A stretch of 29,419 nt of DNA from a virus (IMGVR_UViG_3300044568_001101:1-29419); one strand, 5' to 3'; shown: positions 1 through 18,934, counted from the first letter of the stretch. Program-made: numbers and translations. The notes: generated from the letters alone by a model not told the origin.

Positions 1-839
1 GCATTTGTATATCCATCTGGTGAAACCCCTTGATTGGCGGTAAGGCTACATTGATATTTTAACCAGTATGCGTTATCGGCTTGCTCCGAGTATTGAGCCA
101 AATTAGTCCGCTGCGGCTCCAAAATCAAGCGAGGGCAAGTAGAGCCCAAATAATCCAAACGGGGTAAACCGCTAACGGGGCCAACTGATACCGCTGCGGT
201 GGTGGTGGCGATGTAGTCCGTTGCTATGTCGCCCGTTTCAGATTGGGCAAAGGCAAAGTACATCGTATCGCCAATGACCATACTGCCGCCATTTGTATCG
301 GCAAGCATTACCAACATTTCAGTTGCAGAACTCATATAAACAGAGCAGCGATACCAGCCATTGCCTACTGATTCAATTTTTGCTAAAGAACCAGCACCAA
401 CGTTTGTAACAGTTTGGTTTGATAAATTAAAACCAGCACCATTATTATATCCTCCGTTAATAATTGAGAAAAAACTTTTTGTTCCCGCTTTAGCGTAAAT
501 ACTAAATGTTTTTGCTCCAGTCTGTGTTTGATAAAACCAAACCGAAATTGTTCCCGTAGAGGTGGCTAAAAAAGCAGATGTTCCGCCATTAGGGTCAGTT
601 TGTCCAGAAGTTAAAGTGAGGTTTCCTTTTGTCCAAACCGCATCCGAAAATGTGTTTGAGTACGTAAGCAAATTAGTCCGCACCTTTTCAATAAGGCCGT
701 TGCTTGCCACACGGGTGGCGCTTGAGGCACGGCTGAAGGTGAGGTCACCCGTACCATCGGTCGGCTTAACCGAGTAAACCTTTTGGTCTTTGTATCCCGA
801 AGGAATCATTACCAGACTTGCGTCATCAAAAAAACTCAT
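1..839 (-). CDS. Tail fibre / receptor-binding protein, 3' end beyond the window
   Basis: An open frame runs from ATG at 839 to the window edge with no stop, giving 279 visible residues. The N-terminal stretch (residues 1-52) has the FSRASSATRV signature common at the start of phage fibre and head-spike proteins. Residues 54-90 begin with RTNLLTYSNTF and are followed by a beta-rich, carbohydrate-binding-like domain that closes with ATDYI near 206-210. A second copy of the opening motif, RTNLAQYSEQ, starts at residue 244 after a SGLPRLDYLG linker, so the protein is built of repeated lectin-like modules and the second module is cut by the edge. It is expected at the tail tip and to bind host surface glycans; that role is inferred from family resemblance. 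The start lies one base after the upstream stop. Confidence 0.8.
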   Translation of the reverse strand, partial: MSFFDDASLVMIPSGYKDQKVYSVKPTDGTGDLTFSRASSATRVASNGLIEKVRTNLLTYSNTFSDAVWTKGNLTLTSGQTDPNGGTSAFLATSTGTISVWFYQTQTGAKTFSIYAKAGTKSFFSIINGGYNNGAGFNLSNQTVTNVGAGSLAKIESVGNGWYRCSVYMSSATEMLVMLADTNGGSMVIGDTMYFAFAQSETGDIATDYIATTTAAVSVGPVSGLPRLDYLGSTCPRLILEPQRTNLAQYSEQADNAYWLKYQCSLTANQGVSPDGYTN

Positions 840-840
840 A

Positions 841-1161
841 TCAATTCAAAATAAATAGTTGGTCAATTAAGCATTCCTCTCCCTCCAATGTTGCTCCGTC
901 ATCGGTCATACGCTGAATATACGTATCAAAAATATCATAGTAGGTGTCCTCACCCAAGTCCTGCAAGGCAGCAGTCAAGCAATCATAGCCCTCAAACGTG
1001 CCTCCATCGTTCAGCACCCGAGTCTCAAACTGCTCCACTATCTCATTAGCAGGAGCGAAGCACGGAGGGGCTGACTGATTCTGGATAGACAAAGTAGTCT
1101 CGTCCACTTGGCCAAACCAAGTAGAGCAATAAATGCTACCCCATCCTATTAAGTTTGCCAC
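841..1161 (-). CDS. Small virion-associated protein with two DGG-E-C motif copies
   Basis: 106 residues from a GTG start; a stop 12 bases upstream and the lack of a nearby Met leave GTG as the best choice. The C-terminal half is two copies of one 18-residue motif, FETRVLNDGGTFEGYDCL (45-62) and YIQRMTDDGATLEGEECL (81-98). The same motif occurs in the genes at 3562-3996 and 12633-13898. The N-terminal part has two further cysteines (12 and 34). It sits between the neck/adaptor gene and the fibre gene and ends one base before the fibre start, so it is probably a small neck or fibre-attachment protein. I do not recognise a named family; the function is unknown. Confidence 0.8.
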   Translation of the reverse strand: MANLIGWGSIYCSTWFGQVDETTLSIQNQSAPPCFAPANEIVEQFETRVLNDGGTFEGYDCLTAALQDLGEDTYYDIFDTYIQRMTDDGATLEGEECLIDQLFILN

Positions 1162-1227
1162 TCTGTATTCTTTTTAGAAATAACCTCAGTTTCTCTTGGT
1201 TGTTATCTTTTGGCTGGTACTGCTTTT

Positions 1228-1731
1228 TTACAGAACCCATCCCGTGAAGTACGTCTCGTTGTCTGGCCATACGTCATTGTTATTGTTGGTGTAGTACTCT
1301 GGGAACTTTGTAGAAGCGTAGAACGACATATAGTCAACAAAACGCTGCGTGTAGTAGTCTGCTATCTTTTGCTCCTTGCCAATTAGGAAATCAATTTCTT
1401 CCTTATCAACTCCCGTGCTATTCTCCGATGTGTGCTTGAACACACCTTTGTTAGCGATAGTGTAGGCTGCGAACGGCAGGTACTCTACCATTGCAAAGTG
1501 AATAAGCATTGGCTGCACGTAGTCGGTTACCAAATCTAAATAGTCTCCTGCCAGTGTATTTGCAATAATGTCTGCGGAAATCCTATTGTACAACTTTGTA
1601 CCCAAGTAATTCTGAATGTGAATTTCCTGCGCAATCTTGATGAACTGAATAAACTTATCTGTATCTACGTTACCACTTAAAGCGGTATTGCGAACAAGGT
1701 CTTCTCTGGTGATAAATAGTGCCGTTGCCAT
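1228..1731 (-). CDS. Head-tail adaptor-like protein (DUF6712-like)
   Basis: 167 residues, mostly helical, with the general look of the adaptor proteins that follow the portal in Bacteroidota phages (an ITREDLVRNTAL start, a central helix rich in aromatic residues, then a tyrosine-rich C-terminus). ATG at 1731 lies one base after the portal stop, so the two genes are translationally coupled. Such proteins form the ring below the portal that connects head to tail; this is inferred from position and resemblance. A 66-base gap with no gene or terminator separates it from the next gene. Confidence 0.65.
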   Translation of the reverse strand: MATALFITREDLVRNTALSGNVDTDKFIQFIKIAQEIHIQNYLGTKLYNRISADIIANTLAGDYLDLVTDYVQPMLIHFAMVEYLPFAAYTIANKGVFKHTSENSTGVDKEEIDFLIGKEQKIADYYTQRFVDYMSFYASTKFPEYYTNNNNDVWPDNETYFTGWVL

Positions 1732-1732
1732 T

Positions 1733-3565
1733 TTACTTTAACCAATCAGGTGGGTTGAGATATCCAGCGTCTGGCATAAAGCGTGGTGCCTTTGCAACTT
1801 CTGGGTCATTTTGTATTAGACGTGCTTCGGAGCGAAGTGAGGGGTCAAGTTTATTGATAAGGTCTCTGGCTTCGTTTACCGTAATGCGGGTATTGTTCTT
1901 CCGAAGGTAGGTCTGACGCATCCAGAAATGCTGACAGAATGGTCCGCCTTTGTAGAGCCAGATAGAATAGAAATCGGATCCGTTTGGTCCAAATCCAGCG
2001 TTTGCACCTTCAGCATCCAGAATGTCTTCCATTCGGTACACTTTGTTAGCACTTTCCATCATAGCGCAGAAATCACGACTGGCTCCAGAGGCTGCGCCCG
2101 TGCTAGTGTATTTGTAGCGAACCTTAATAATGCTTGTATCCTGCTCTGAAGTTTGATTAGGTGAGCTCTGAATAACCTCTGCGAAGGTGAACGCTGCGTT
2201 GCGCAGGTCTTCTTTCTCGTAGTCGGCAGGTCGCTCGTCTACCAACTCCCAGTCATCACTCATCTCCTCGCCTTTCGGGATTAGAGCATTGGTAATCTTC
2301 TCGGTAATTTCCGCAGTAAGTTTCGGTACGCAGTTAGGAACCATCTTACCGTCTTTCTCCTTGAAGCCAATCATCTCGTAACCTTCCCAGCAGGGATTGG
2401 CAGCCAAGTGAGTATGCATCTGGTCTTTGACCTTTACTCCAGTCTCCTCCTCAATAACTTCAGCATCTCCAACTTTCATAGTACTCCACTCCAGAGGGCG
2501 TAAAGTCTTGAAATAAAGGTTGAGGCTAATATCGTTGAAAGCAAGTACCTCTTGGATGCCATCCAGAATAACTTCCTGCATTGGTTCAATCACCGTATTC
2601 TCAAAAAGAACAGATGCCGTTTCAAGTTCCTGCGCATTGTTGCCAAGTCCTGACTGGTCCTTAATTCCCAGAAGCATCGGGCTGGTGACGCGGTGTGCAA
2701 CCATCAACTTCTTCATAGACTCATCTGCGAGGAATTGATATTGTTGCGAGGCATCGCTTAACTGCACGGGAGTTATGTCCGCAGCGAGCTCCTTATTGTC
2801 GTTAAACGAGACAATAAAGCGTCCTGCGTTACTGCTTCCGCTAAACTTCTCCGCAATCCTGCGCTCGGCTTCATCCTGCTGCTCTTCCGTAGGAACTCCG
2901 TTGTTGAAGTTAATAAGCATTGACGGAGCCAATCCGTTCTTGATATTGTTGATGTGGTAGTTGGCTATCTCTTCTTCCAACTCCGCATACTGAAGGCCAC
3001 CTTGATAGTCAACTGGCGAGTAGTAGTAAAAACCTGCTCGGTACGGCTTGATGTAAATAATTTCAATCGCTTCTTGGCTGAACCCAAAGGCAGGGATTCG
3101 CATAGGCTTCTCCTTATTGTCCTTAACGTCTTTCCAGCTTTTTGCGTAGTAGTATCCTTCTACGTCTCCATCCTCATTGCATTTCTCGGCACGTAAGGTT
3201 TCAATAGGTAGGTGGTCTACCTGCACAATCGTATCGTGACTATCGTTGTAGATAACTTGAATAGCGCACTGACCCATCATTTTGTAGTCGGAGACTAACT
3301 TCCGTAGGCAGTTTTTCTTGAACAATGCCCTCATCTGAGCGTACTGCTCTGGCTTGCGACTAGAGTCCGTAGCATCTATACCACGACCATACATCAATTC
3401 TACAATACCATTGATAATAGCGTTGTTAGTTGGCGAGCCATTGTAGCGTTCAATCAAATACTGAAAGTAGTTGTTGTCCTCTCCGTAGGAGACCCATTCT
3501 TTGTTTTGTACCTCCTTAACCACTGGTGTGGTGTAAGTGGACATTTTCATTATCCTTACGTTCAT
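1733..3565 (-). CDS. Portal protein with C-terminal extension
   Basis: 610 residues. Residues 1 to about 360 match a phage portal: an N-terminal region with SYGEDNNY, a wing, and a stem/crown region with the MLLGIKDQSGLGNNAQELE segment (298-316) typical of SPP1/HK97-type portals. The portal forms the dodecameric DNA channel of the head. Beyond the core there is a CWEGYEMIGFKEKDGKMVP motif (392-410) and then a separate domain at about 480-555 with RDFC, FGPNGSDFYSIWLYKGG and the pattern C-x-H-x-W-x-R. Similar domains occur as independent or fused head-morphogenesis modules in related phages. ATG at 3565 overlaps the previous stop as ATGA. An alternative ATG at 3544 has AAGGA eight bases upstream and could be the real start, giving 603 residues. 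The gene lies far from terminase, which is unusual. Confidence 0.85.
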   Translation of the reverse strand: MNVRIMKMSTYTTPVVKEVQNKEWVSYGEDNNYFQYLIERYNGSPTNNAIINGIVELMYGRGIDATDSSRKPEQYAQMRALFKKNCLRKLVSDYKMMGQCAIQVIYNDSHDTIVQVDHLPIETLRAEKCNEDGDVEGYYYAKSWKDVKDNKEKPMRIPAFGFSQEAIEIIYIKPYRAGFYYYSPVDYQGGLQYAELEEEIANYHINNIKNGLAPSMLINFNNGVPTEEQQDEAERRIAEKFSGSSNAGRFIVSFNDNKELAADITPVQLSDASQQYQFLADESMKKLMVAHRVTSPMLLGIKDQSGLGNNAQELETASVLFENTVIEPMQEVILDGIQEVLAFNDISLNLYFKTLRPLEWSTMKVGDAEVIEEETGVKVKDQMHTHLAANPCWEGYEMIGFKEKDGKMVPNCVPKLTAEITEKITNALIPKGEEMSDDWELVDERPADYEKEDLRNAAFTFAEVIQSSPNQTSEQDTSIIKVRYKYTSTGAASGASRDFCAMMESANKVYRMEDILDAEGANAGFGPNGSDFYSIWLYKGGPFCQHFWMRQTYLRKNNTRITVNEARDLINKLDPSLRSEARLIQNDPEVAKAPRFMPDAGYLNPPDWLK

Positions 3566-3996
3566 ATCACAATAAAGGTATTATCTCGGCTGGTCTCCTC
3601 AACATAGTCGTTCTCATTCAAGGTATATTGCTTGAGGTTAGTCTGGGAAGTGCAGTAAACCTTACCCCGATAGATATCTAAACTATCGTACTCCACTCGG
3701 ATGTTGTAGAATACGCCCTCCTCAACTGAGTAGATAGCATTCAACTGCATATACCCGTCAATCTCCGTTATTTTTGGGTTGATTGTAGCCGTTGTATTGG
3801 TTTGTTCGTTATTCAGGTATAGCGTAACCCCGTCAATGTCTTTTACGGCCTCCTCAACGCACAATTCAGCCTCCAGAGTACCCCCGTCAAGTTCTACTCT
3901 CTCAAAGTAAAGTTCTAAATCCTCCGATGAGAACACATATTCTCTCGGTACAACCGTTATGGTCTGGACATAGTTAACTGGCTTTAGAATGTGCAT
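3562..3996 (-). CDS. Virion protein with one DGG-E-C motif
   Basis: 144 residues, beta-rich, with no recognised family. Residues 30-47 (YFERVELDGGTLEAELCV) are one copy of the 18-residue motif found twice in the 841-1161 product and once in the large tail protein at 12633-13898. The C-terminus (NENDYVEETSRDNTFIVI) resembles the end of small structural proteins of Bacteroidota phages. It is the first gene after the UUCG-loop terminator and overlaps the portal start by four bases, so it is co-expressed with the portal. A role in the neck or as a connector is possible but unproven. Confidence 0.75.
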   Translation of the reverse strand: MHILKPVNYVQTITVVPREYVFSSEDLELYFERVELDGGTLEAELCVEEAVKDIDGVTLYLNNEQTNTTATINPKITEIDGYMQLNAIYSVEEGVFYNIRVEYDSLDIYRGKVYCTSQTNLKQYTLNENDYVEETSRDNTFIVI

Positions 3997-4026
3997 ATAC
4001 TAATTAACTTAATTCTGTCGGTTTGT

Positions 4027-4053
4027 AATAAAAAGGCCTCCCGAAGGAGGCCT
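4027..4053 (-). terminator. Rho-independent terminator with UUCG loop
   Basis: On the minus strand an 8-bp perfect stem (AGGCCTCC with GGAGGCCT) closes a TTCG tetraloop with a C-G closing pair, followed by TTTTTATT. It lies 28 bases past the stop of the tail-tube-like gene and before the 144-residue gene, so it should end or thin out transcription of the highly expressed capsid and tube genes. Confidence 0.93.
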
Positions 4054-4081
4054 CTTAGTGGCACCAATAATAAAAACCAAA

Positions 4082-4630
4082 TTACGAGTTGGTGCCTACA
4101 ACTGGCGTGATGCCAGTCAAGTCTCCAAACGGGTCAGCGGTAGTTGCGCCCTTCACGAACAAAGCCATTAGCTGCTCCGTTGCGGTAAAGGTAAGTGTGT
4201 AGCCGTTAAGGTCACCCATCTCTGCGCCAGTTACTGCAGTTCCGCCCGTTACTTCGCATCCAAAGTTGGCTCCACAAAGGAAAGTGTTGCCATTTCGGTC
4301 TTGTACGAAGATTTGCGGACGGCCATAGGCCATCAACTTAAGTTGCTTATTGTCTTCCTTCGTCATCTTTGTCAACGTAATGTTGATTGTCTGAGTAAAA
4401 AAGGTAGTTCCGCTTTCACGGGTAGAGTTAATCGTTTGCTCCAAAGAGTTTGGACCTTTAACGATGTACTCGTATGCACTTACGGCAACTCCAGAGGTTG
4501 CGGTAAGCTGATCATCTGCATCCAGAGTCAGCGTTCCTAAATCTCCGTAATCAACGAAGAAAATTTTGTTAATGCCACCTACTACATCTTTGCAGGGGAC
4601 TTTACGTCCAAGTGTTAAATCACAAGCCAT
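4082..4630 (-). CDS. Probable major tail (tube) protein
   Basis: 182 residues. It starts MACDLTLGRKVPCKD, a sequence type that recurs in abundant structural proteins of Bacteroidota phages, has a beta-rich centre with KQLKLMAYGRPQIFVQDRNG, and closes with a GDLNGYTLTFTATEQ strand typical of tail tube-like folds. It is isolated between two strong terminators, just after the major capsid gene, which fits a protein needed in high copy. The alternative is a head decoration protein; sequence alone does not settle it. Confidence 0.6.
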   Translation of the reverse strand: MACDLTLGRKVPCKDVVGGINKIFFVDYGDLGTLTLDADDQLTATSGVAVSAYEYIVKGPNSLEQTINSTRESGTTFFTQTINITLTKMTKEDNKQLKLMAYGRPQIFVQDRNGNTFLCGANFGCEVTGGTAVTGAEMGDLNGYTLTFTATEQLMALFVKGATTADPFGDLTGITPVVGTNS

Positions 4631-4643
4631 TGTTTTTTGAATT

Positions 4644-4674
4644 AAAAAAGGGGTAAGAGTAAAACCCTCACCCC
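4644..4674 (-). terminator. Rho-independent terminator after the capsid gene
   Basis: Read on the minus strand, GGGGTGAGGG pairs with CTCTTACCCC (10 pairs, two of them G-U) around a five-base TTTTA loop, followed directly by six T. It lies between the capsid stop (4701) and the next start (4630). Read-through would set the ratio of capsid to downstream products. Confidence 0.88.
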
Positions 4675-4700
4675 CTTGAGGTTATTTTATTCGGTTCAGA

Positions 4701-5627
4701 TTAGGTGTAGTATACAACCTCAGAACCAAAGCCGTACTGAATACCAGCCGTAAAGCGCATAATAATGCGTACGTTCTGGCTTCCGTCAATGTCGCCCATA
4801 TCAATGACCTTCACTTCGTTGTGGTCGCTCAAAAGACCAGTTCCGAAGTATAGGTTTGATTTCTGTGCAGCAACCATTTCGTTTGCACCAAGTCCGTAGA
4901 CCATAGCAACCTTAACTCCATCGTAGTTCAGGTCTCCCTGATTCCACCACATAGTACCTTGATTGTTTACACCGTTGGCACCTACTCCGTTGGCAGCGAA
5001 ACCACCAAGAGCACGTACGTAAGCCTTCGCTACGTTGGGAGCAACGTAGATAGTGAGGTCTTCTTTACCGTAAAGAGTATTGGGAACGGCATCAACCAAC
5101 TTGCCCATCTCTTCAACTACGTTAGCAGCAGTTACAGTGGTTCCAACTACGTCAACAACAGTTCCGTCAGCAGCGAAAAGGGTGGTAAAACCATCAAACT
5201 GTCCAGCGGTTGCGTTTACACCTGCCCAGATACTTTGCTCAATGTTTTGAGCAACCTTCTCAGCTACGTGAGCAATAAGAAAGTCGGTAAAAGTGGTAGG
5301 AAGGTTATCGTAAACAGAGTAGCCCATTTGTACGGCCTCCCAGTCGGAACGGAAGTCTTTTTTGCAGAGCTGCAAGTTTACTTGAAATTCTTCGGGCTGG
5401 ATAATCCGCTCATCAAGCGTCAGCGTAGAAGTTGGGTCAAAGTCACACGTAGCGTTCTTTACGATGTCATTCGTAGAAACTCGCTTAATAACTTCTTTGT
5501 ATTTGACGTTAGGCTTAATTTCAATCAAGCCCTTGTCAAGGGTTACTCCTGACAAAAGAGCAGCGGCAATGTATTTGCCAGCAAACTCACCTGCGTAGGT
5601 AGTAGTAATTGATGTCGTAGTAGGCAT
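4701..5627 (-). CDS. Major capsid protein (HK97 fold)
   Basis: 308 residues. Sequence type and position match the HK97-fold major capsid proteins of Bacteroidota siphoviruses: a short N-terminal arm rich in Thr/Ser, a spine-helix region near residues 105-135 (FTDFLIAHVAEKVAQNIEQS), a P-domain/E-loop segment around LTLDERIIQPEEFQVNLQLC, and a C-terminal beta stretch (VRIIMRFTAGIQYGFGSEVVYY). It follows a protease and a scaffold-like gene, as expected for a procapsid-building module, and is flanked downstream by its own terminator. No long delta domain is present at the N-terminus, so scaffolding is probably supplied by the separate acidic protein at 6857-7414. Confidence 0.88.
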   Translation of the reverse strand: MPTTTSITTTYAGEFAGKYIAAALLSGVTLDKGLIEIKPNVKYKEVIKRVSTNDIVKNATCDFDPTSTLTLDERIIQPEEFQVNLQLCKKDFRSDWEAVQMGYSVYDNLPTTFTDFLIAHVAEKVAQNIEQSIWAGVNATAGQFDGFTTLFAADGTVVDVVGTTVTAANVVEEMGKLVDAVPNTLYGKEDLTIYVAPNVAKAYVRALGGFAANGVGANGVNNQGTMWWNQGDLNYDGVKVAMVYGLGANEMVAAQKSNLYFGTGLLSDHNEVKVIDMGDIDGSQNVRIIMRFTAGIQYGFGSEVVYYT

Positions 5628-5644
5628 TTTATTACTTGTTTTGG

Positions 5645-6067
5645 TTAGTTAAAGGGTAAATCAGACTCAAGGTCAAAGACTTCTTGCGAAATCTTCAAGA
5701 GTGAATCTGCGTTTTGGGAAACTTCCGCATAAACTGGGATGACGTTAGGGTCAATTCCTAGTTCAAATGCGTTATCGCTGAACTCAGTAAGAGAAGCAGC
5801 AACAGAGGTGTGAGCATCAGAAATGCGTGAGTAGTCAATACCAGAGTATTGGCTTTTGAACTCGGCAATCTGTGCTACAATGCCTTCAATGGCACTTTTG
5901 TATTCTTCCGATGCGGAAATAAGGTCAGACAAGTCCGTAGAGACGTCTTGCAGCTCTTGTACGGACGCCAAATGCATCTTGTGGGCAACCCTTTGGTTGG
6001 TCTCCCGAAACGTCTTCCTACGCTTTGCAGACGCAAGAGTGTTAAAGATGATTTGACGCTCGCTCAT
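5645..6067 (-). CDS. Pre-capsid tandem paralogue 3
   Basis: 140 residues, helical, with an N-terminal basic patch (SAKRRKTFRE) and a C-terminal signature FELGIDPNVIPVYAEVSQ. The two genes just upstream have matching features: the M-[NS]-H-Q-Q-R start appears here as MSERQII, and the L-G-[IV]-D segment occurs at the same relative place. I read the three as diverged tandem duplicates. No named family is recognised. The position between scaffold and capsid genes suggests head proteins, for example internal or scaffold-like factors. The start overlaps the previous stop as TAATG. Confidence 0.78.
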   Translation of the reverse strand: MSERQIIFNTLASAKRRKTFRETNQRVAHKMHLASVQELQDVSTDLSDLISASEEYKSAIEGIVAQIAEFKSQYSGIDYSRISDAHTSVAASLTEFSDNAFELGIDPNVIPVYAEVSQNADSLLKISQEVFDLESDLPFN

Positions 6068-6471
6068 TAGAGTGCTCCAAAAATATCGTCTTGTGAATAT
6101 GCGGTCAAGTCCTCTGCAACTATTTCTGCTTTGGAAATGGCTTCAGACAACTGGTCGTAGTTTGAGATAAGGCTGGGGTCAATACCGAGATTGTCTGCAG
6201 CCTCCTCAATGTTGCCTTTAATTCGGATAGCAATGTCGTATGAAATCTGGATAAAGCCTTGAAGGACTTCAATCTCACTGTAAACACGACGAGCCGATGC
6301 AATAACCTCGTCAATTTTTGGAGCAAGTTGGTCAACCTCACGGCTTAAAGAAGCAAGGTCTGCAATTGGCTCGGCAGCCTCTTCCGACAAAGAGAACTGG
6401 ACCTTCCTTGCTTGCGCAGGGGTCTTGCTCAACTTGGCAAGCATATTAAGAACTCTTTGTTGATGACTCAT
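6067..6471 (-). CDS. Pre-capsid tandem paralogue 2
   Basis: 134 residues from ATG at 6471. A longer frame exists from TTG at 6513, but it would overlap the previous gene, whereas the ATG gives MSHQQRVLNMLAKLSK, which matches the start of the neighbouring paralogue (MNHQQRVYNLLSKVG). The centre is a long helical, coiled-coil-like region and the C-terminal signature is DNLGIDPSLISNYDQLSE. This is the middle copy of three tandem paralogues; function unknown, head-associated by position. Confidence 0.8.
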   Translation of the reverse strand: MSHQQRVLNMLAKLSKTPAQARKVQFSLSEEAAEPIADLASLSREVDQLAPKIDEVIASARRVYSEIEVLQGFIQISYDIAIRIKGNIEEAADNLGIDPSLISNYDQLSEAISKAEIVAEDLTAYSQDDIFGAL

Positions 6472-6482
6472 TATATTTTTTA

Positions 6483-6860
6483 TTAAAGCAGTCTGTCGGC
6501 CTCTATCTGCCAATCTTTTGCGTTGCTAATGCTATCTCCTTTGGTGTATTGCAGATATTCTGTTAGGGCTTGAATGCTATATGCATCAACGCCTAATTCG
6601 TTTGTAAATGACAAAACTTCCTCTCCAACTAATTCAACCTGCTCCCACATAAGAAGCACATCCATTGCCGTATCGGATACCCTTCCTGCTGCTGCGGTAA
6701 GCTCCGAAACACTTCTATTGTTTTCAGTAATAGCGGCACCAAGTCGGGCAATCATAATTTCAAGGTCATTAACCATAGACATATCAACCTTTCGCTCCTG
6801 CTTAAGGCTAACATTACCTACTTTTGAAAGCAAGTTGTAAACTCGCTGCTGATGGTTCAT
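6483..6860 (-). CDS. Pre-capsid tandem paralogue 1
   Basis: 125 residues starting MNHQQRVYNLLSKVG, with a helical centre and the signature NELGVDAYSIQALTEYLQ near residue 88. It is the first of three tandem paralogues before the capsid gene. ATG overlaps the scaffold-like gene stop as ATGA, so the set is coupled to scaffold translation. The copies share the start and the L-G-[IV]-D region but differ widely between them, pointing to an old duplication with separate roles. Confidence 0.8.
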   Translation of the reverse strand: MNHQQRVYNLLSKVGNVSLKQERKVDMSMVNDLEIMIARLGAAITENNRSVSELTAAAGRVSDTAMDVLLMWEQVELVGEEVLSFTNELGVDAYSIQALTEYLQYTKGDSISNAKDWQIEADRLL

Positions 6861-7414
6861 CGGTTGCTCAACTTAGAGAGAACTCGGTCAAAAGTAGTAG
6901 CGGCAGAACGGTTAGATGAAAGCTGAACTTGCTCTTTCTCTGGCCTAGAAGGGTTGTGCTTGATGGCTTTGGCAGCAGGCTGCTTGCTCATCTCCTCTTT
7001 CTTCTTCTCCATATATTCCTTCATCTTCTTCATTTCCTCTTTGACTTCTTCAATCATCGGGGCAACAACGTCAACTACGGCTTGGACAATTTCCTCAACG
7101 GCAGGTGCAATTTCAGCAGGAGCCTCAACCTCAATTTCTTCGGCATCAATAGCTACTTCTTCGGTCTCGCCTTCTTTTTTGGTTACTTCGGCAATCATAC
7201 CTTCCTCTGCAACTTTTAGAAGCGAGCCATCTTCCATTGTGTAATCACCAACGGGAAGTGGGATGCGCTCATCTTCGGTTACGATAAAGATTTCATTACC
7301 TGATTCAAACGACTCGGCTTCTAATACCGTTCCGTTGTCAAGGGTCATCTGTGCGAGTTTGGTCTTGCGATTCAGCTCCACAAGGATTTTTTTAAGGATG
7401 TCTGTTGCTTTCAT
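6857..7414 (-). CDS. Scaffold-like acidic coiled-coil head protein
   Basis: 185 residues from ATG at 7414 (a TTG two codons earlier is less likely). Residues about 20-75 form a small beta domain with repeated DG turns (LDNGTVLEAESF, MEDGSLLKVAEEG). Residues about 80-120 are very acidic and rich in Ala and Val, followed by a charged coiled coil (EEVKEEMKKMKEYMEKKKEE) and a basic, serine-rich tail. Acidic helical proteins placed between the head protease and the capsid gene are usually scaffolds that are cleaved during maturation; that assignment is by position and composition, not by a defined motif. Confidence 0.7.
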   Translation of the reverse strand: MKATDILKKILVELNRKTKLAQMTLDNGTVLEAESFESGNEIFIVTEDERIPLPVGDYTMEDGSLLKVAEEGMIAEVTKKEGETEEVAIDAEEIEVEAPAEIAPAVEEIVQAVVDVVAPMIEEVKEEMKKMKEYMEKKKEEMSKQPAAKAIKHNPSRPEKEQVQLSSNRSAATTFDRVLSKLSNR

Positions 7415-7450
7415 AACCAAGTAATCTTATTTCTGTGTTTTGTTGCATTT

Positions 7451-7603
7451 TTACTCTGGCAGTTTAACCGTAACGCCTACGCCCTGCGCCCAAAGGCTTC
7501 CATCGCAGCATTTTTTGGAGTAGGTATTGGCATCTCTGCACAGACAACCTCTACGGCCACCTCTGGGACTGCTTCGGCTTGGGGTCTTTTCATCTTCACT
7601 CAT
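7451..7603 (-). CDS. Cysteine-rich microprotein (RRGCLC type)
   Basis: 50 residues, starting at an ATG that overlaps the last eight bases of the protease gene. It carries RGGRRGCLCRD (15-25), then YSKKCCDGSLWAQG (28-41). The four cysteines (20, 22, 32, 33) suggest a metal-binding or disulphide knuckle. Short proteins with this arrangement occur beside head genes in other Bacteroidota phages, as far as I recall; no function is known to me. The 36 bases between its stop and the next start hold no other gene. Confidence 0.75.
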   Translation of the reverse strand: MSEDEKTPSRSSPRGGRRGCLCRDANTYSKKCCDGSLWAQGVGVTVKLPE

Positions 7604-8546
7604 AACGGCTGACAATTTTAACTACTTCGTACAGAAAGTCCATAGCCTCTTCGTGAGTCATATCTTCTACCTCTGTCAAGATATCTGTATTGACTGATGC
7701 TTCAATTTCTCCAAGTTCTTTTAATTTACCACGAGACCAGTTAAGTCCCGACTTACCGCCCCAAGCATCATACATCAACTTACCGCAGCCATCAGAGTAG
7801 CTTTTACTTGCATTAAGGTCTGCTTCGTGACGGCTCAAGTAAGAGTACATACGTTTTATGGTTTCCAGAGAAATTGATTCTCCCTTCGCCAGTTGATTGG
7901 CTCGTTGCTTACCAACATCAGTTCCGCATCCGCCCCATCCGTTTTTCTCAACCCAGTCAAGTACGTTACGAGCATTTGCTTTGACGTCATTTGGATAGTC
8001 CGCAAACGACTCCATCTCTTCTTTTGCCATATTAACCTTGTCGGCAAAGTAGCCTTCAATAGAAAAACCTTTGACGCTTCCAGACTTTACGTACTCGTTC
8101 CAAACGTCATCATTGCTAACCTTGACGCTAACCATCCAAGTTCCTGCTGGGTAGGAAAGTCCGTAGAAAGATGACTTGTCTTTTTCTGGGTCTTCTATAA
8201 TCCAAGACTCCACAACCGAAAGCCCATTCACCTTTGCTTGATGCTCTAAAGTGTGATTGTTCTGGTAGCCACGCATCAAAAAGAGTTCAGCAGCCCTGCG
8301 AATTGTTGTCTTGGAAAAGAATACGTAAAACTCCTCTCCGTCTTGATTTCGGTAGATGGTTTTGTTGGGAATTAACGCTGGACCGATAAGCAGTTTCTTT
8401 TCTGCACTCTGTTCCGCAAACTCTGTTTTTTGCTGGCGGTTAAGTGCTATAAAGTTTCCCTCAATAGCGGGATGCTCCACAATACTGATTGCGTCTACTC
8501 CGTTGAGCATTGACGTTTCGTCAAGGATAAGTTCAATGATTTTCAT
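7596..8546 (-). CDS. Head maturation protease (XkdF-like) with extra C-terminal domain
   Basis: 316 residues. Residues 1-170 resemble the XkdF-type putative serine protease: a VEHPAIEGNF start region, a histidine region NNHTLEHQAKV (97-106) followed by VVESWIIEDPEKDK, and GSVKGFSIEGYF (156-167) with Ser162 as the likely nucleophile. It should cleave scaffold and capsid precursors inside the procapsid. Residues about 185-278 form a second domain (ARNVLDWVEKNGWGGCGTDV, then SLETIKRMYSYLSRHEADL and CGKLMYDAWGG) that often accompanies phage head proteases and has no known role. The gene begins six bases after the tape measure stop. Confidence 0.82.
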   Translation of the reverse strand: MKIIELILDETSMLNGVDAISIVEHPAIEGNFIALNRQQKTEFAEQSAEKKLLIGPALIPNKTIYRNQDGEEFYVFFSKTTIRRAAELFLMRGYQNNHTLEHQAKVNGLSVVESWIIEDPEKDKSSFYGLSYPAGTWMVSVKVSNDDVWNEYVKSGSVKGFSIEGYFADKVNMAKEEMESFADYPNDVKANARNVLDWVEKNGWGGCGTDVGKQRANQLAKGESISLETIKRMYSYLSRHEADLNASKSYSDGCGKLMYDAWGGKSGLNWSRGKLKELGEIEASVNTDILTEVEDMTHEEAMDFLYEVVKIVSRYE

Positions 8547-8552
8547 AACTAA

Positions 8553-10454
8553 TTAACCGAAAGTTGCCGTTCTGATGCGTTTCCGTTCAAGTTCCGCACC
8601 TGACATTACATCACCGTTGACTACATAAGCCCGTACGGGGTTTTGAAATTGCCCCGCTATGTCCGCTAAAAGTTGGTTTGTGCCCGACTGCCCAACGATA
8701 TTAAAAGAAGGCTGCACAGAGGGTATTTGAGGGGCTGATGGGCTTGATGAGGATGCTTGCCCTCCTCCGTCAAACTTTTGTGCGCTGATGGTAGCGATTT
8801 GAGTAGCTCCCGTTGCTGCTATAATTGCTGCCTTTGCCCAGTTTGCTCCAGTTAATTGGTCTTGAGGAACGGACAACTGCCCGATAATTCCTGCTGCCGT
8901 ATTAATAATAGCTTGAAGCAACTGCAGTTTCTTACCACGCTCAAATGCACGCCTTGCTGCGTTCTCATCATCCTTGTCGTAAATTTCATTGAGCTTCATC
9001 AAGTTCTCAATGGTGGCGTTTGCACTATCTACAATTAAATCACGTATCTCTTGATTGCGCTTTATTTTTTTGTCTGCAGCTTCTTTGGCCGCATCCTCTT
9101 CTTTATCACGATACTTGTTGTTGATTTCCAGCAGTTCCTTTTCACGCTGCTCGGTAATCATTGCCAGCATTTCAGCGTTGTTTGCGTAAAACTGCTCCAG
9201 AGCGAAGAACTTGTCAAGCGTTGCGTTGATTTCCTGCTGCTCATCACTCTGCTGCTGCTGAAGGACTTTTTCGTCAAACTGCTTCTGCATATCCAGCTCG
9301 TGGTTCCGAGCATTCTCTGCAGCCTGCGCTTCGGCATCTGATTTGCGCTGAGCAGCGTCAGCTGCATCTTTTAATGCTTTATCCGCAGCCTCCTTCGCTT
9401 TCTCTGCTGCGGCTTTTGCTGCGGCTTCCTTTTCCTTTTTCTCTTCAACTAGGAATCCATCACGAGTACTCTTAAGTTTTGCCAGTTGGTTCTCCGTTTC
9501 CTTAATAGCCTCTTCACCTTCGGCCTTTACTTCATCTGGGTCAAATACTAATTTGGCTAAGCCACCACTAAATCCTTCTTCCAAGCCAAAGTCCTTACCC
9601 AGTACCTTACCAATTGAGTCAATAGTCCCCAGCAAAATGCTAAGTGGCAAGGTCAAAAACCTTATTATCCCTTGAAGTATCTGCTTATTGCGATTGGCTG
9701 CATCTATTTGACTTTTCTGAATTTGCTTCTGCGAAAGAAGTTGAGCCTCCAACGCTTTGATTGTCTCATCGGTCTGCTGAATTTTCAAGTCCCGAATCTC
9801 CCTTTCGGACTTTCCCTGCAGTTTTAGGGAGTTCTCCTGAAGAGAGATAGCATCTAATGCTTCCTGCTGCGCTTTGGCGTTCTGCTCCGCAAGTTCTTTG
9901 TTCTTGGTAAGTTCAACGCTTGCACCAGAAATAGCCCCTTTGATGTCATCCCAATAGGCAACGAGTAACCCAACGCCAACAACTAGCGCACCAATACCCG
10001 TAGCTATTATGGCAACCCGAAGGACTTTTGCTGCTGCTGCTCCGTTGGTAAATGCAAGTTGCAGAGTCTGACCAAACAACTTGACGTTGTTGATTGTCTG
10101 CATAAGCAGATTCTGCATTGAAAACGTAGACCACCATTCTTTGGCCTTACCAATAGCATCAGTTACGCCAAGTTTAATAAGTTGGAATGCCTTGAACGCT
10201 TTCTGACCAAGTTCAATGTAACCGCCAGTCGCTCGGTCAATATCACGGATTACCTCCTTCTTGGCTTGGGCAAGTTTGCGCTCCTCGCTTTCCTGCTCTC
10301 TTGTAGCTTTTGTTGCTTTCTTGCTGGACTCCTCCCGCTTCGCACCAAGCGCATCTACTTCTTTACCCGTTTCACTAATGGAGTTGCGAAGCTCCTCTAC
10401 GGATGCTACGGCTTCGGAAGTATCCGCTTTGATTTCGTATTCCTTTATCGCCAT
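8553..10454 (-). CDS. Tape measure protein
   Basis: 633 residues, largely helical. There is an N-terminal coiled coil (about 15-75), a hydrophobic segment around 148-168 (IATGIGALVVGVGLLVAYW), long Lys/Glu/Ala coiled coils (about 340-500), and a C-terminal hydrophobic part (LLQAIINTAAGIIGQLS) leading to QKFDGGGQ and a Ser/Pro-rich tail. This layout is typical of tape measure proteins, which set tail length and help DNA ejection. With the usual 0.15 nm per residue, the tail would be about 95 nm, an estimate only. The start overlaps the small gene upstream. Confidence 0.88.
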   Translation of the reverse strand: MAIKEYEIKADTSEAVASVEELRNSISETGKEVDALGAKREESSKKATKATREQESEERKLAQAKKEVIRDIDRATGGYIELGQKAFKAFQLIKLGVTDAIGKAKEWWSTFSMQNLLMQTINNVKLFGQTLQLAFTNGAAAAKVLRVAIIATGIGALVVGVGLLVAYWDDIKGAISGASVELTKNKELAEQNAKAQQEALDAISLQENSLKLQGKSEREIRDLKIQQTDETIKALEAQLLSQKQIQKSQIDAANRNKQILQGIIRFLTLPLSILLGTIDSIGKVLGKDFGLEEGFSGGLAKLVFDPDEVKAEGEEAIKETENQLAKLKSTRDGFLVEEKKEKEAAAKAAAEKAKEAADKALKDAADAAQRKSDAEAQAAENARNHELDMQKQFDEKVLQQQQSDEQQEINATLDKFFALEQFYANNAEMLAMITEQREKELLEINNKYRDKEEDAAKEAADKKIKRNQEIRDLIVDSANATIENLMKLNEIYDKDDENAARRAFERGKKLQLLQAIINTAAGIIGQLSVPQDQLTGANWAKAAIIAATGATQIATISAQKFDGGGQASSSSPSAPQIPSVQPSFNIVGQSGTNQLLADIAGQFQNPVRAYVVNGDVMSGAELERKRIRTATFG

Positions 10455-10591
10455 TGCTTGATAATTTTACGGATTGCTCCACCGATTGTTTCTGGTAGGT
10501 GGTATTTACCGAGAGCAGTCTGGATTGACTCGCTCTTGTTTTTGTATTTTGTTTGCCGAAGTAACTCAAGCAAAATGCCGATGTATTTCAT
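10445..10591 (-). CDS. Small basic protein before the tape measure
   Basis: 48 residues (starts MKYIGILLELL, ends KIIKQWR). The ATG overlaps the stop of the upstream tail gene by one base (TAATG) and its own end overlaps the tape measure start by ten bases, so it fills the gap exactly and is probably translated. The amphipathic N-terminus and basic C-terminus give no family. It may help tape measure folding, but nothing in the sequence proves this. Confidence 0.7.
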   Translation of the reverse strand: MKYIGILLELLRQTKYKNKSESIQTALGKYHLPETIGGAIRKIIKQWR

Positions 10592-12636
10592 TACACTACG
10601 TTAAGAAGTTCAAATTTTGCTTTGCCAGTGCTTAAGTTAAGGCTCACGTTATTTACAAGGTACTTGGTATTGTTCCAGATAATTGCATTCTGGAGGTTCA
10701 GCGTTATAATCTTACCAATAGGCAGTACCGCTTCTACGTTGTACAACCTACGCTGCTCGGAGTAGAGGTCGGTGATGTAGTTGCTCCACTCGGTGTAGTA
10801 GAGACTTTGGTTTACCGATTGTAGGTGGAACGGGTCTATGTCTCCACCAAAACAAATAGAATGCGATGCGGCTGCGCTTACAGCGCGATTGGACGTATTG
10901 GCGTACCAAACATTGTCAACCCTTTCGTGAGTACCATCTGCATTTACATACCCAATAGGGTTTGCACTTATGTCTATTCTATATTCAGCGTAAAATACAA
11001 TAGGCGCACCCAAGTATGGGTTGAATATACCCGACGCATTTGCATCACTTGTAATGCTTTTGTAAACGATTACATTGGTAAGGGCATCTGTATGCAGGTC
11101 TGTTAGCCTTTCAAATAGCGGACACTCAAACGGCAGTTCAATCAAGAACTCCTCTCCATCAAAAGTAAATAAAACATTCAAATCCCCAAATCCTACATCA
11201 TTTGTTTGTTGGTATTGATATCCGAGTATCTGCTCTGTCGGCTGATACTTAAATTCTATCTCCTTGTAAAGGGGTGGTCTATTTACCACATACTCGGTTA
11301 TGTCTAAATAATCTTGGAAGTCTTTATCTGCACCATCTGCGTACCAATCATCCAGAGGCTGAAGCAAAAAGCTCGTAGATGTGGTTGGCACAATCACCAT
11401 ATTGTACATTTTCATAACTCCTGCCAAGAAGTCCTTTACTTTTATTTCGGGCATTAATTCCGAAACTCGTACTTCTGCGGTAATGGTCGCAGATGCTGAC
11501 ATTGATGCAGTACCTAACGAAAAGGGCGGAGCAGCTACATTGGGATTAAAAACCATACTCCAAGGTGTCACCCTATAAGTTAAAGGGGTTGTATTGTTTT
11601 GAGTTTTTACTCGTAGGCTAATTCTATCTCCATCTTGTAAACTTAATCCAACAAAAGAAAATGGCCCCGTTGATGTTACTACTTTGCTTGTTCGGTAGCC
11701 ACCATTAACGTAAATAGCAAAATTCGCATCTTGGCTTAATGTAGTAACAGTAACACTAAATTCAAAAGTTCCTGCGCTGCTTCCAAAGTCTGAGGGTATG
11801 TCAAAAGTATCATTACCAAGATCAAAATAAATTCCCGTGCTTGTTTGGAAGTTTATCTTTTGATACGTCATTGCGTTAGGTTGGTCTTGATACATATAGC
11901 CTTCCTTGCGGTGCAGCCATAGCGACAAGTCAATAAACGGAACGGCAGATAAGAATGAACCCGTAAAAGTGATGCCGTATTTTGTCTCTATTGCATCAAG
12001 TATAGCCGTAACCTTTAGCGCGGGCTTAAACTCATAGTAACGGATGCCTCTCTCACCTTGATGACCCTCGCCACCGCCACCACCCCTAAAAGCAATGTTG
12101 TTTTCGTTGTCAGCCCCTGCATCATTTTCACTTTCGTAAAACCAATTCTTTACGGGGCTGCATAAAGGGTAAAACAACGGAGCGTAAGTGCTTGTTGTGA
12201 GCCTATTATAGATATCTACATCATCATACCTATGGTTGTATGCGCTAAAATCAAGGTCGTACAAGTAGTCCTCGCCAAACAAGTCGGTAAGCGTTACCAC
12301 ATCACCATAGAAAGTTAACGAATAGGCGTATGCTTCCGTTCCTTTGAGTTGCACGCTTTCCAGCTCTATTACGCCCGTACGGAACGGCAGGGAGTTTATT
12401 TCTATTTGAGCGGCCACCCGTAAGCGTCCATCAAATGAACCACTTAAATCGGTTCTGTAGTAATAACTGAATACCTGATTGTTGGTTACGCTGGCAGGAA
12501 CAGTAAAGTTCTGGGTAAAGTCTGTGAATACCTTGCTGATGTCCTGCACATTCTGTACGGACAGATTAATAACGATTTCCTCATCTTGAAATAAGTCAAG
12601 CCTCTGGTCGTTAATGTAAATGTCAACCTGATTCAT
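10591..12636 (-). CDS. Large tail tip / baseplate protein
   Basis: 681 residues. It opens with a beta-rich domain (DIYINDQRLDLFQDEEIVINLS, followed by VFTDFTQNFTVPAS) that recurs in large tail proteins of Bacteroidota phages, has a glycine loop (FRGGGGGEG) near residue 190, a beta-sandwich-like centre (about 290-380), then ELMPEIKVKDFLAGVMKMYNM, which resembles a hub or distal-tail helix. It begins with an ATGA overlap after the other large tail gene and lies beside the tape measure, so a place at the tail tip is likely. No enzyme motif was seen. Confidence 0.72.
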   Translation of the reverse strand: MNQVDIYINDQRLDLFQDEEIVINLSVQNVQDISKVFTDFTQNFTVPASVTNNQVFSYYYRTDLSGSFDGRLRVAAQIEINSLPFRTGVIELESVQLKGTEAYAYSLTFYGDVVTLTDLFGEDYLYDLDFSAYNHRYDDVDIYNRLTTSTYAPLFYPLCSPVKNWFYESENDAGADNENNIAFRGGGGGEGHQGERGIRYYEFKPALKVTAILDAIETKYGITFTGSFLSAVPFIDLSLWLHRKEGYMYQDQPNAMTYQKINFQTSTGIYFDLGNDTFDIPSDFGSSAGTFEFSVTVTTLSQDANFAIYVNGGYRTSKVVTSTGPFSFVGLSLQDGDRISLRVKTQNNTTPLTYRVTPWSMVFNPNVAAPPFSLGTASMSASATITAEVRVSELMPEIKVKDFLAGVMKMYNMVIVPTTSTSFLLQPLDDWYADGADKDFQDYLDITEYVVNRPPLYKEIEFKYQPTEQILGYQYQQTNDVGFGDLNVLFTFDGEEFLIELPFECPLFERLTDLHTDALTNVIVYKSITSDANASGIFNPYLGAPIVFYAEYRIDISANPIGYVNADGTHERVDNVWYANTSNRAVSAAASHSICFGGDIDPFHLQSVNQSLYYTEWSNYITDLYSEQRRLYNVEAVLPIGKIITLNLQNAIIWNNTKYLVNNVSLNLSTGKAKFELLNVV

Positions 12637-13898
12637 CGTATTAGCATCCGTTGGTCAAACGCATAGGTGAACGACAAGTTATAGTTGATTAAGCCATCGT
12701 TGACCGATTTAAGGTAGTTTACGCTCCCTCTCTGCGGAACTACCGCTACCCACTGCTCACCTTCGTAAATAGCTGCTTTCTCGCTCATCATAATTTCTTC
12801 TACAATGCTTCCGTAAGATTCATCTACGAAGCCAGTGTTGAGCGACAACGTATTGCGTGAGTTAATGTTGAAAGACTGGTACTTGCCATTGTTATAGTCC
12901 ACGTCTGTAAACCCATCAGCGTAAATACTTTTCTGGTACTGGTCTTGTGTAAATGAGCCAGACTCATCGCTTCGCTTAAAGAAGGTTATGTAGTCGCTGA
13001 CCCCGTACTTGTTTACAAACTGCATTAGGTACGGAGTGTACTTTATCTCACACAAAACGGTGAAGTTGTGAGCAACCTTGTCATCGTTTCCGCCAAGAGC
13101 ATCAACCCCATCAATCAAGCAACCAAGTGCTTCAACAACCCCACCATCTGCTTTTACTCGGTCATTGTAAGATATGCACTCGTTTGCTACAAGCAAATTA
13201 ATTGTATATGAATCGGGCAAGGTTATACCCAGAAACTGCGAAAGGTTTGGCTGACCGCTTGGGATGTAGATAACCATCTGCGTAGACGTAGTTGTCGCAT
13301 TAGTCCAGCCAAGTTCATCCTTTAGGGAGAAAACATACTCAACGCCACCTGCCTCTACGCTAAAACCATTTACTCCAGAGTATGAGTTGTAGGAAACTGC
13401 AAGGCTCTGGGAGTTGCCTGCAAGCACCTGAAATGGGCGCAAGGTTACGAGGTTGGGCTGCGTTACTCCCGTATTCTGTTGCTGACCCAACGCCTTGTAG
13501 CCATCTAAAGCAAGAAAGTAAGCATCTGAAATTCCACCACTAATTGGTGCGGCTCCATTATTAGAATAGTTCCAGCTTCCACTTATCTGCGCCCAAGCAG
13601 CTTCACCAGTTTCTGATGCACTTGGGGCGGTGATAAACGCTTTACCGAATGGATGCAAAAAACGCTCACGAACCAAGTCAGCAACTTCAAAATTGATTAC
13701 CTCGTCAATAGAGTAGTCCTTTAATAAGGAATAGGTTGTTTCTCCAGCGATAGGGTCACGAACGCCCGTGTATAATTTTAATGTTACGCTCATTGAGTTG
13801 AGCGTATCTAAAGCAAGAGTATTGTTTTTGCCCGTTACAAATAAAGGGCTGCGGGCTTGCGCAATGCTTGTAGGGATTGCTATTACTGGTATACTCAT
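12633..13898 (-). CDS. Large tail protein with an embedded DGG-E-C motif
   Basis: 421 residues, beta-rich, of a type found next to baseplate genes in Bacteroidota phages. Residues 1-130 and 275-421 look like parts of one structural protein (ending SFTYAFDQRMLIR). Between them, residues 244-261 (YNDRVKADGGVVEALGCL) are a copy of the motif also present in the 841-1161 and 3562-3996 products. The motif may be a surface-exposed insertion. The start overlaps the previous stop as ATGA. The exact role in the tail is not determined. Confidence 0.72.
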   Translation of the reverse strand: MSIPVIAIPTSIAQARSPLFVTGKNNTLALDTLNSMSVTLKLYTGVRDPIAGETTYSLLKDYSIDEVINFEVADLVRERFLHPFGKAFITAPSASETGEAAWAQISGSWNYSNNGAAPISGGISDAYFLALDGYKALGQQQNTGVTQPNLVTLRPFQVLAGNSQSLAVSYNSYSGVNGFSVEAGGVEYVFSLKDELGWTNATTTSTQMVIYIPSGQPNLSQFLGITLPDSYTINLLVANECISYNDRVKADGGVVEALGCLIDGVDALGGNDDKVAHNFTVLCEIKYTPYLMQFVNKYGVSDYITFFKRSDESGSFTQDQYQKSIYADGFTDVDYNNGKYQSFNINSRNTLSLNTGFVDESYGSIVEEIMMSEKAAIYEGEQWVAVVPQRGSVNYLKSVNDGLINYNLSFTYAFDQRMLIR

Positions 13899-17720: not shown

Positions 17721-18048
17721 TAATTCTTACATTGAATAAGTTGTCGCTGGTTGTTTGTATTTCCTGACGCTCAACATAGCCACGATGCTTGCCTTTAGTT
17801 TTTAGAAAGAAGATAGTAGCGGTGGAGTTGCCATCCTTTATCTGCTTGTGCAGTTGGCTCTCTGCGAAGTCAAGAGTCATATCGGCAATTGATTCCACTT
17901 GACTGCGGTAGTTCTCATCTTCCTTGTACCACTCGTAGTGAGTCTGTCTGGCAATGCCCACTGTCTTGCAAGCAGCCGTTACAATTCCCAAAGATTTCTC
18001 AAGGGCTTCAGTCATTGCTTTTTTCTGTATGTCAGTTTTTGTCAGCAT
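17707..18048 (-). CDS. terS: Terminase small subunit
   Basis: 113 residues with an N-terminal helix-turn-helix (SLGIVTAACKTVGIARQTHY), a central helix pair (VESIADMTLDFAESQLHKQI) and a LKTKGKHRGYVER motif before the C-terminal tail, as in phage TerS proteins that bind the packaging site. It lies directly before terL and overlaps the end of the dioxygenase gene by 17 bases, tying the modification cassette to packaging genes in one transcript. Confidence 0.88.
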   Translation of the reverse strand: MLTKTDIQKKAMTEALEKSLGIVTAACKTVGIARQTHYEWYKEDENYRSQVESIADMTLDFAESQLHKQIKDGNSTATIFFLKTKGKHRGYVERQEIQTTSDNLFNVRIIETD

Positions 18049-18934
18049 TTCTTATTTTGTTCTTTATAAGTTCGTTGTCGCTTTGAGTCTTTAGTTCCTG
18101 CCTTCTTTTGTCAAGTGAAGCCAGATGATCAGGGTCAAGGCGTTTCTTTTCTCGTTCAGTTTTCACCTTGCGGATGCGTTTGATTTCTTCTCCCAAAGGT
18201 TCGCACTTCCACATTTGCTCAAGGGAGTAGTAGACTAATGAGTATCGGTATGCCGAATCGTTTTTGTATTCAATGCTTGATACTCCGTGAAGAATATCCT
18301 GCCCGTTGAAAATTGTTATGGTATTATCTTCTACTTCCAGAGCAAGGTCAAATTCTGGGATTATTAAATGCCCTCCCTCAATGTCTTTCTTAAACACAAC
18401 CATATTAGACAGAACGCTTTTAAAGTTCCCTGCGTCAAAGTGGTATTTCAGTTGGTTGTTTCTGTTTACAATCCCGCTAGTAAATGGAGAGCCTCCTATC
18501 TTCCAGTCCTGCATTACTCGCTCCTCTACTACTGCATTGTGGTATTCATACTGCTCTGGAAAGTGTTCTCTGTAATAGCCTACAAGTTCTTTGGCGAAGT
18601 CCGTAATTACGTGGTGCTGCTTCGGGTAGTTGTGAGCCATTGACGTTACGGTACAATAGTCGTGGCGCATTGCTACTCGTGGAGAGAACCCGAAGATAGC
18701 GGATGTTGACTCAAGCCCTCTGCTTCTTTTACCCGTTGAGTATTTTTGACTCTTTACTGCCCAGCGTAATGCCGAAGTATCTGTCTGTAGTTTTTTGTAC
18801 AGAACAACGGGCACGTTATCTACGTAGATAATGCAGTCCTCTTTTATAAGGTTTGTTACATCACTGCGGAGTGCGGTTCGTTTCTTGAACTTGCCTTTAT
18901 CTACTGGCAGTCTCTCTAAGTCAAGGCGTATCAT
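18032..18934 (-). CDS. TET/JBP-type 2-oxoglutarate Fe(II) dioxygenase
   Basis: 300 residues. The double-stranded beta-helix core holds the iron ligands His165-x-Asp167 in YHFDAGNF, a GGHLIIPEFD strand (187-196), FNGQDILHGVSS with the distal ligand His216, and Arg230 in YRYSLVYYS for 2-oxoglutarate. The pattern H-x-D-x-G-N ... GG-x-L-x-x-P-E ... LHG is that of the TET/JBP family, which oxidises the methyl group of 5-methylcytosine or thymine in DNA. The charged tail after residue 250 may bind DNA. The start overlaps the glycosyltransferase gene as ATGA. No DNA methyltransferase is present in the window, so thymine or host-made 5-methylcytosine are both possible substrates. The family call is good; the base specificity is unknown. 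Confidence 0.8.
   Translation of the reverse strand: MIRLDLERLPVDKGKFKKRTALRSDVTNLIKEDCIIYVDNVPVVLYKKLQTDTSALRWAVKSQKYSTGKRSRGLESTSAIFGFSPRVAMRHDYCTVTSMAHNYPKQHHVITDFAKELVGYYREHFPEQYEYHNAVVEERVMQDWKIGGSPFTSGIVNRNNQLKYHFDAGNFKSVLSNMVVFKKDIEGGHLIIPEFDLALEVEDNTITIFNGQDILHGVSSIEYKNDSAYRYSLVYYSLEQMWKCEPLGEEIKRIRKVKTEREKKRLDPDHLASLDKRRQELKTQSDNELIKNKIRNADKN

Follow-up and report, generated by a model that had tools for sequence, protein, structure and literature searches.

Why should one short motif recur in three virion proteins that otherwise share nothing? The question is raised by a viral record of 29.4 kb (IMG/VR IMGVR_UViG_3300044568_001101:1-29419; "the window" hereafter denotes this whole stretch of DNA), in which an initial annotation had noticed four segments of 18 residues and had proposed that they represent a mobile or shared interaction module containing a conserved cysteine. 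We find that the motif forms the centre of a predicted helix-turn-helix module of about 33 residues (roughly 30), which we term the DGG-C module, and we consider it probable that this module serves as a portable tag through which receptor-binding fibres of a single class are docked to the virion at several sites. The module lies outside Pfam and NCBIfam, yet dozens of virion proteins that otherwise have nothing in common contain it.

The module and its carriers

The four segments translate at the positions originally reported, and a six-frame scan of the window with the pattern [FY]xxR[VM]xxDG[GA]x[VLF]E[AG]xxC[LV] matched these and nothing else, where the window's own residue frequencies predict 2e-8 matches over six frames by chance. 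The module genes, and the other features placed in this paragraph, lie on the minus strand, along which the order is terminase, 250-, 158-, 209-, 421- and 681-aa proteins, tape measure, 316- and 187-aa proteins, major capsid, 182-aa tube-like protein, 144-aa protein, portal, 167-aa connector, 106-aa protein and fibre; several of these names we take from gene order and general knowledge. Two copies belong to the 106-aa protein (841..1161), here called the adaptor, which is encoded between the connector and fibre genes and in which a conserved N-terminus (NLIGWGSIYCSTWFG) is followed by copy 1, FETRVLNDGGTFEGYDCL (976..1029, residues 45-62), and copy 2, YIQRMTDDGATLEGEECL (868..921, residues 81-98); copy 2 is near-invariant among aligned homologues and stops just before the fibre start codon. 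The 144-aa protein (3562..3996), whose gene is flanked by those of the 182-aa tube-like protein and the portal and which is the counterpart of gp05 of Nonlabens phage P12024L, carries the core YFERVELDGGTLEAELCV (3856..3909) within a 33-residue insert (3829..3927), and the 421-aa tail protein (12633..13898) carries YNDRVKADGGVVEALGCL (13116..13169, residues 244-261). The next gene, for the 681-aa tail protein (10591..12636), has no module in the window; its loop DLSGS (12436..12450) is an empty acceptor at which relatives carry either DGG-C or a tryptophan-rich (W) cassette. The spike-fibre gene (3..839), cut by the window end, matches the NCBIfam family NF048003 GTA_spike_fiber (E=1.6e-43; 149 bits, cut-off 36), and its N-terminal "PSGYK" domain (ASLVMIPSGYKDQKVYSVKPTDGTGDLTFSRASSATRV...; 672..821) defines the partner class of the module.

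The description of the carriers as otherwise unrelated is borne out, as the three match different PHROGs apart from the motif itself. None of the 106-, 144- and 421-aa proteins has a significant Pfam or NCBIfam domain; the 144-aa protein matches phrog_31097 over its whole length (E=1e-8, residues 5-128), and this family meets the other two at most over the motif. Elsewhere in the window, three small ORFs stand in a row at 5645-6860 (140, 148 and 125 aa), the last two about 36% identical, which suggests tandem duplication, and ORFs that by sequence impression resemble an oxygenase and a glycosyltransferase occupy 18032-20912; together with the annotated 2OG oxygenase and HMC-glucosyltransferase of P12024L, these may point to DNA modification.

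Among 94 module copies sharing less than 75% identity, G10 and C17 were present in 100%, R4 and E13 in 98%, and V5 and D8 in 96%, figures that must be read with the search pattern in mind, since it favoured conserved residues, the cysteine included. The cysteine emphasized in the initial annotation is thus invariant in this pattern-favoured set, and it is also kept in degenerate adaptor copies that were located by genome position rather than by pattern. Such persistence would suit a patch in which the cysteine joins proteins covalently and the correlation with fibre type described below is secondary, but each hairpin has one cysteine, which may be no more than a buried core residue, and this residue was favoured by the search itself; we regard covalent cross-linking as highly improbable, and any role assigned to the cysteine is a putative one. 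An AlphaFold model of a cis fusion of the module to a fibre (74-row alignment) predicts helices at residues 3-25 and 33-45 separated by the turn DGGVFEA, with a pLDDT of 82-91 over residues 11-50 and low confidence in the remainder; the mean pLDDT for the 421-aa protein was 38. No Pfam or NCBIfam model matched over the motif, a search of BFVD with the module-PSGYK model found no match, and PDB searches by sequence and by profile returned nothing meaningful.

The module is not confined to this phage, a matter on which the initial annotation had proposed a wider search. Scanning of public collections with exact degenerate DNA patterns recovered the motif from at least 120 stretches of viral contigs, within dozens of unrelated phage ORFs of 46 to >1500 aa. 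The module is near-exclusive to viral contigs, and its carriers are marine and freshwater phages. Most of the 117 pattern matches in host genomes were apparent chance matches in GC-rich genomes, with the aromatic residue missing; profile checks of eight host genomes established genuine copies behind three (L223, L233 and L291; G and L numbers are our own labels for records), and the module was absent from all 198 other Flavobacteriaceae genomes. The hosts are probably Bacteroidota, judging by the Nonlabens relative and a few flavobacterial MAG matches. A tblastn search with the 106-aa protein against cultured phages gave matches at chance level only. The FITAxG...WxKmkAiyPxxG element of Flavobacterium phages FL-1 and elemo, a candidate relative, bears a superficial likeness to the module in the sequences compared.

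Insertion of the module into different loops and proteins

That the module is mobile holds at the level of protein, where it is present or absent, and placed in differing loops, among homologues; the DNA gives no indication of recent transposition. Members of the 144-aa family are divided by a clean insert of 33 residues, which the window, G239 and G229 have and which is missing from G236, G237, G238, G240, G242 and G264. Within the 421-aa family, carriers have the module at three different sites and the distant homologues L074, L089 and L090 are without it. In the 681-aa family, about 50 residues including the module occupy the loop that is bare in the window (YRTDLSGSFDGRLR) in L074, L090, L347-L352 and L355, the same loop holds the different, W cassette in L336 and L340-L345, and the module lies near the N-terminus in L113, L168 and L153. 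A further kind of insert (NVVDNSSAVMGLLGYVPDTI) was seen at this acceptor loop in L354. The 681-aa protein is the host of the module in phages whose 421-aa homologue is without it: among 80 contigs sampled independently of the module, the 421-aa protein was the carrier in 18 and the 681-aa protein in 8, and no contig had a module in both. We considered strict exclusion between these two locations, but on these approximate counts it is not significant by itself (p about 0.1).

Clean in-frame polymorphism at several loci is also what would be expected of selfish mobile DNA that encodes an in-frame peptide. Rickettsia palindromic elements place short in-frame peptide inserts in many genes, and the DGG-C module resembles them in being a short in-frame peptide insert distributed across many genes; it differs in combining strong constraint at the protein level with no DNA-level signal of copying. 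Codon comparison revealed no DNA-level similarity of the Rickettsia type between copies in different genes: the codon agreement of diverged copies was 43% within a contig and 38% between contigs, against 38% expected from codon usage, and values so close to expectation give no sign of recent copying of DNA. As conservation resides in the protein and matching to fibre class would be left unexplained, a selfish origin seems to us scarcely credible.

Cassettes and fibre classes

The position occupied by the 106-aa protein is filled across these phages by a small protein with a conserved INWGxIYCSxxWG-like N-terminus and a variable C-terminal cassette. With the gp6-like connector gene (1228..1731 in the window, minus strand) as a bait independent of the module, one that marks more than 500 IMG/VR stretches, 87 adaptor-fibre pairs were collected, and among the connector matches listed a DGG-C adaptor was followed by a PSGYK fibre in 45 of 45 cases and any other adaptor in none of 42. 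Reduced to non-redundant pairs among the same listed matches, the figures were 15/15 and 0/24 (Fisher 4e-11), although Fisher values here and below are too small because related phages are not independent. Automatic classing of adaptors overlooked some variants and left a few pairs without a class; six further loci with PSGYK fibres had adaptors below the strict threshold in which degenerate modules could be recognized by eye. The other cassettes have fibres of their own, W cassettes preceding TYDSLIK fibres and AD-T repeats preceding NIGTxxNDGTGD-like fibres. Records selected by the module itself contained a PSGYK fibre in 24 of 30 instances, and at least some of the six without one are fragments that end before the fibre gene (such as G229); in some module-bearing contigs only one copy was detected.

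Adjacency is a striking feature of these pairs. In the window and in many contigs a module copy ends just before the fibre gene, often 20-30 nt from the PSGYK domain, and in L157, L117, L140 and L100 module and PSGYK domain are joined in a direct fusion at the N-terminus of the fibre. Two explanations other than docking draw on this arrangement. The module could be a chaperone-like element for fibre assembly or trimerization, its tail copies serving tail proteins that fold alongside the fibre; the cis fusions, and the tiny size of some module proteins encoded directly upstream of the fibre, are in keeping with such a role, but the module is inserted in loops of the 144-aa protein and of structural proteins of the tail, which suggests exposure on the particle rather than transient chaperoning, and we judge this account improbable. 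Alternatively, the 3' end of the adaptor gene may simply move with the neighbouring fibre gene and the other modules be co-inherited, so that no contact is implied. A match between adjacent genes could by itself reflect co-transfer of this kind, and phages of one cassette class are partially kin; the observations that weigh towards docking are those made at the tail, about 10 kb away.

A set of 29 records picked by the C-terminus of the 421-aa protein comprised seven with a module in the tail pair (421- or 681-aa protein) and 22 without. All six module-positive records that reach the fibre gene encode a PSGYK fibre, the seventh being a 13-kb fragment, as against 1 of the 22 module-negative records (Fisher 1.9e-5, with the reservation given above); in the single exception, G241, the adaptor carries a degenerate module (FYLQRVTAAGGYYEGSACAVAKIDSWL). 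All three cassette classes recur in distant tail-tip proteins of the same phages. The W cassette (WNSIGITWNTWSTAWN), which fills the 681-aa loop in L336 and L340-L345, is also found in a 421-family protein (L413) and at the adaptor C-terminus in G236 and G237, where its presence was predicted beforehand from the cassette in the 681-aa loop and then found. A W profile built from adaptors and run against 11,956 ORFs recovered one further adaptor, six 681-family loops and the L413 protein, together with one weak, unassigned match. For AD-T, a profile made from adaptors alone was run against all ORFs of 12 genomes and the tail proteins collected; every match at E<1 was to an adaptor or a 681-family protein of an AD-T-type phage, the individual matches to tail proteins being weak (best E 3e-4). 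The repeats themselves (TADTTxxxADTTxxKADAT in the adaptors of G245, G247 and G250-G254) were noticed inside 681-family tail proteins as well; those of L386-L400 have them around residues 715-757, often flanked by cysteines. At the portal side, of 40 loci with a module in the 144-aa protein, 39 also had an adaptor of the DGG-C class. The lone mismatch, L073, combines a DGG-C module in the 144-aa protein with a W-class adaptor and a TYDSLIK fibre and is an apparent recombinant.

A natural swap is provided by G236 and G239, which are 94-98% identical in the terminase, the 250-, 158- and 209-aa proteins, the tape measure, the 316- and 187-aa proteins and the capsid (terL 98%, tape measure 95%, MCP 94%). 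Against this common backbone, three proteins stand out by their low identity, the 421-aa (44%), the 681-aa (71%) and the 144-aa (61%), and the adaptors and fibres do not match at all. G239 has DGG-C on its 421-aa protein, 144-aa protein and adaptor and a PSGYK fibre, whereas G236 has the W cassette on its 681-aa protein and adaptor and a TYDSLIK fibre; the module carriers have thus changed together with the fibre across a conserved block. The two islands of difference could represent one exchange event, as co-inheritance would have it, but the tail genes are separated from the fibre by genes that are 94-96% identical, the tail module occupies varied sites in varied proteins, and the rule is obeyed by three unrelated cassette classes. 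We therefore think it unlikely that passive co-inheritance accounts for the pattern; docking is favoured since adjacency can explain the match between adaptor and fibre but not that between tail and fibre.

A putative docking code and its known relatives

Covariation with fibre type points to docking, and a module that switches together with the fibre suggests a plug-and-socket code by which the fibre is attached to the particle; the physical contact itself we infer from the pairing of cassette with fibre class. A small adaptor, whose gene immediately precedes that of the fibre, would display the tag at its C-terminus, unless the tag is borne in cis by the N-terminus of the fibre. The tag would be displayed again in a loop at the tail tip (421- or 681-aa protein), and often on the portal-adjacent 144-aa protein, and would pair either with itself or with the PSGYK domain. 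Matched attachment points of this kind may allow one fibre to be mounted at more than one site on the virion. We lean, by a modest degree, towards the broader proposition that at least three cassettes (the DGG-C hairpin, W and AD-T) on the adaptor and tail tip constitute a docking code, are exchanged with the fibre as a set and relocate freely among loops and proteins; a phage would then change its fibre by way of matched plugs and sockets at separate loci. Such a rule, readable from sequence, would state which fibre fits which virion in abundant environmental phages, and compatibility between fibre and virion, an old question in the evolution of phage host range, becomes open to direct experiment, for which two small peptides and one cultured phage would serve.

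A cultured relative is available in Nonlabens phage P12024L/S (Inhavirus), which has a similar gene order and carries the module on gp05 and gp09, the latter directly before a PSGYK fibre, gp10. It differs in that the module is missing from its 421- and 681-aa homologues, and these genes are all annotated as hypothetical. By eye, gp09 (L331:5953-6552), in the adaptor position, consists of a tube-like domain resembling gp03 and a C-terminal module.

The fibre of the window matches the family of the RcGTA head spike fibre (NF048003). In RcGTA a distinct base protein anchors this fibre by its N-terminus (PMC10218006). RcGTA fibres on the head and on the tail both bind the capsule, which offers a model, speculative in its application here, for tags at the tail tip and portal side by which a single type of fibre could occupy two sites; in RcGTA, however, head spike and tail use distinct fibre proteins with no detectable homology to each other, and the DGG-C module is not reported (PMC10218006).

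Closer in principle are the short conserved docking peptides (7 or 11 residues) that act with an adapter protein in E. coli phages K1-5 and K1E and Salmonella phage SP6, and the anchor-branched receptor-binding protein systems of G7C and Klebsiella phages (PMC6872550). There, and putatively here, a short conserved element determines the receptor-binding protein that the virion receives. In both cases the elements are group specific and the fibres are modular; the match between adaptor cassette and fibre N-terminus likewise constitutes a short conserved element specific to a fibre class. The known peptides lie at the N-terminus of the fibre and are bound by an adapter, T4gp10-like or other (PMC6872550), whereas the DGG-C module is a predicted helical hairpin of about 33 residues that is found on several proteins of the virion, changes its loop and its carrier, and is one of at least three interchangeable classes that recur on both adaptor and tail tip. 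No T4gp10-like domain was detected with Pfam and NCBIfam in the adaptor, 144-aa or 421-aa protein or by PDB profile in the 421-aa family, though a remote structural homology may exist, and a limited search of the open-access literature found no description of this module system. The nearest described principle is thus the attachment of receptor-binding proteins to an adapter by short conserved peptides, to which movement from protein to protein and matched classes seem to be new additions.
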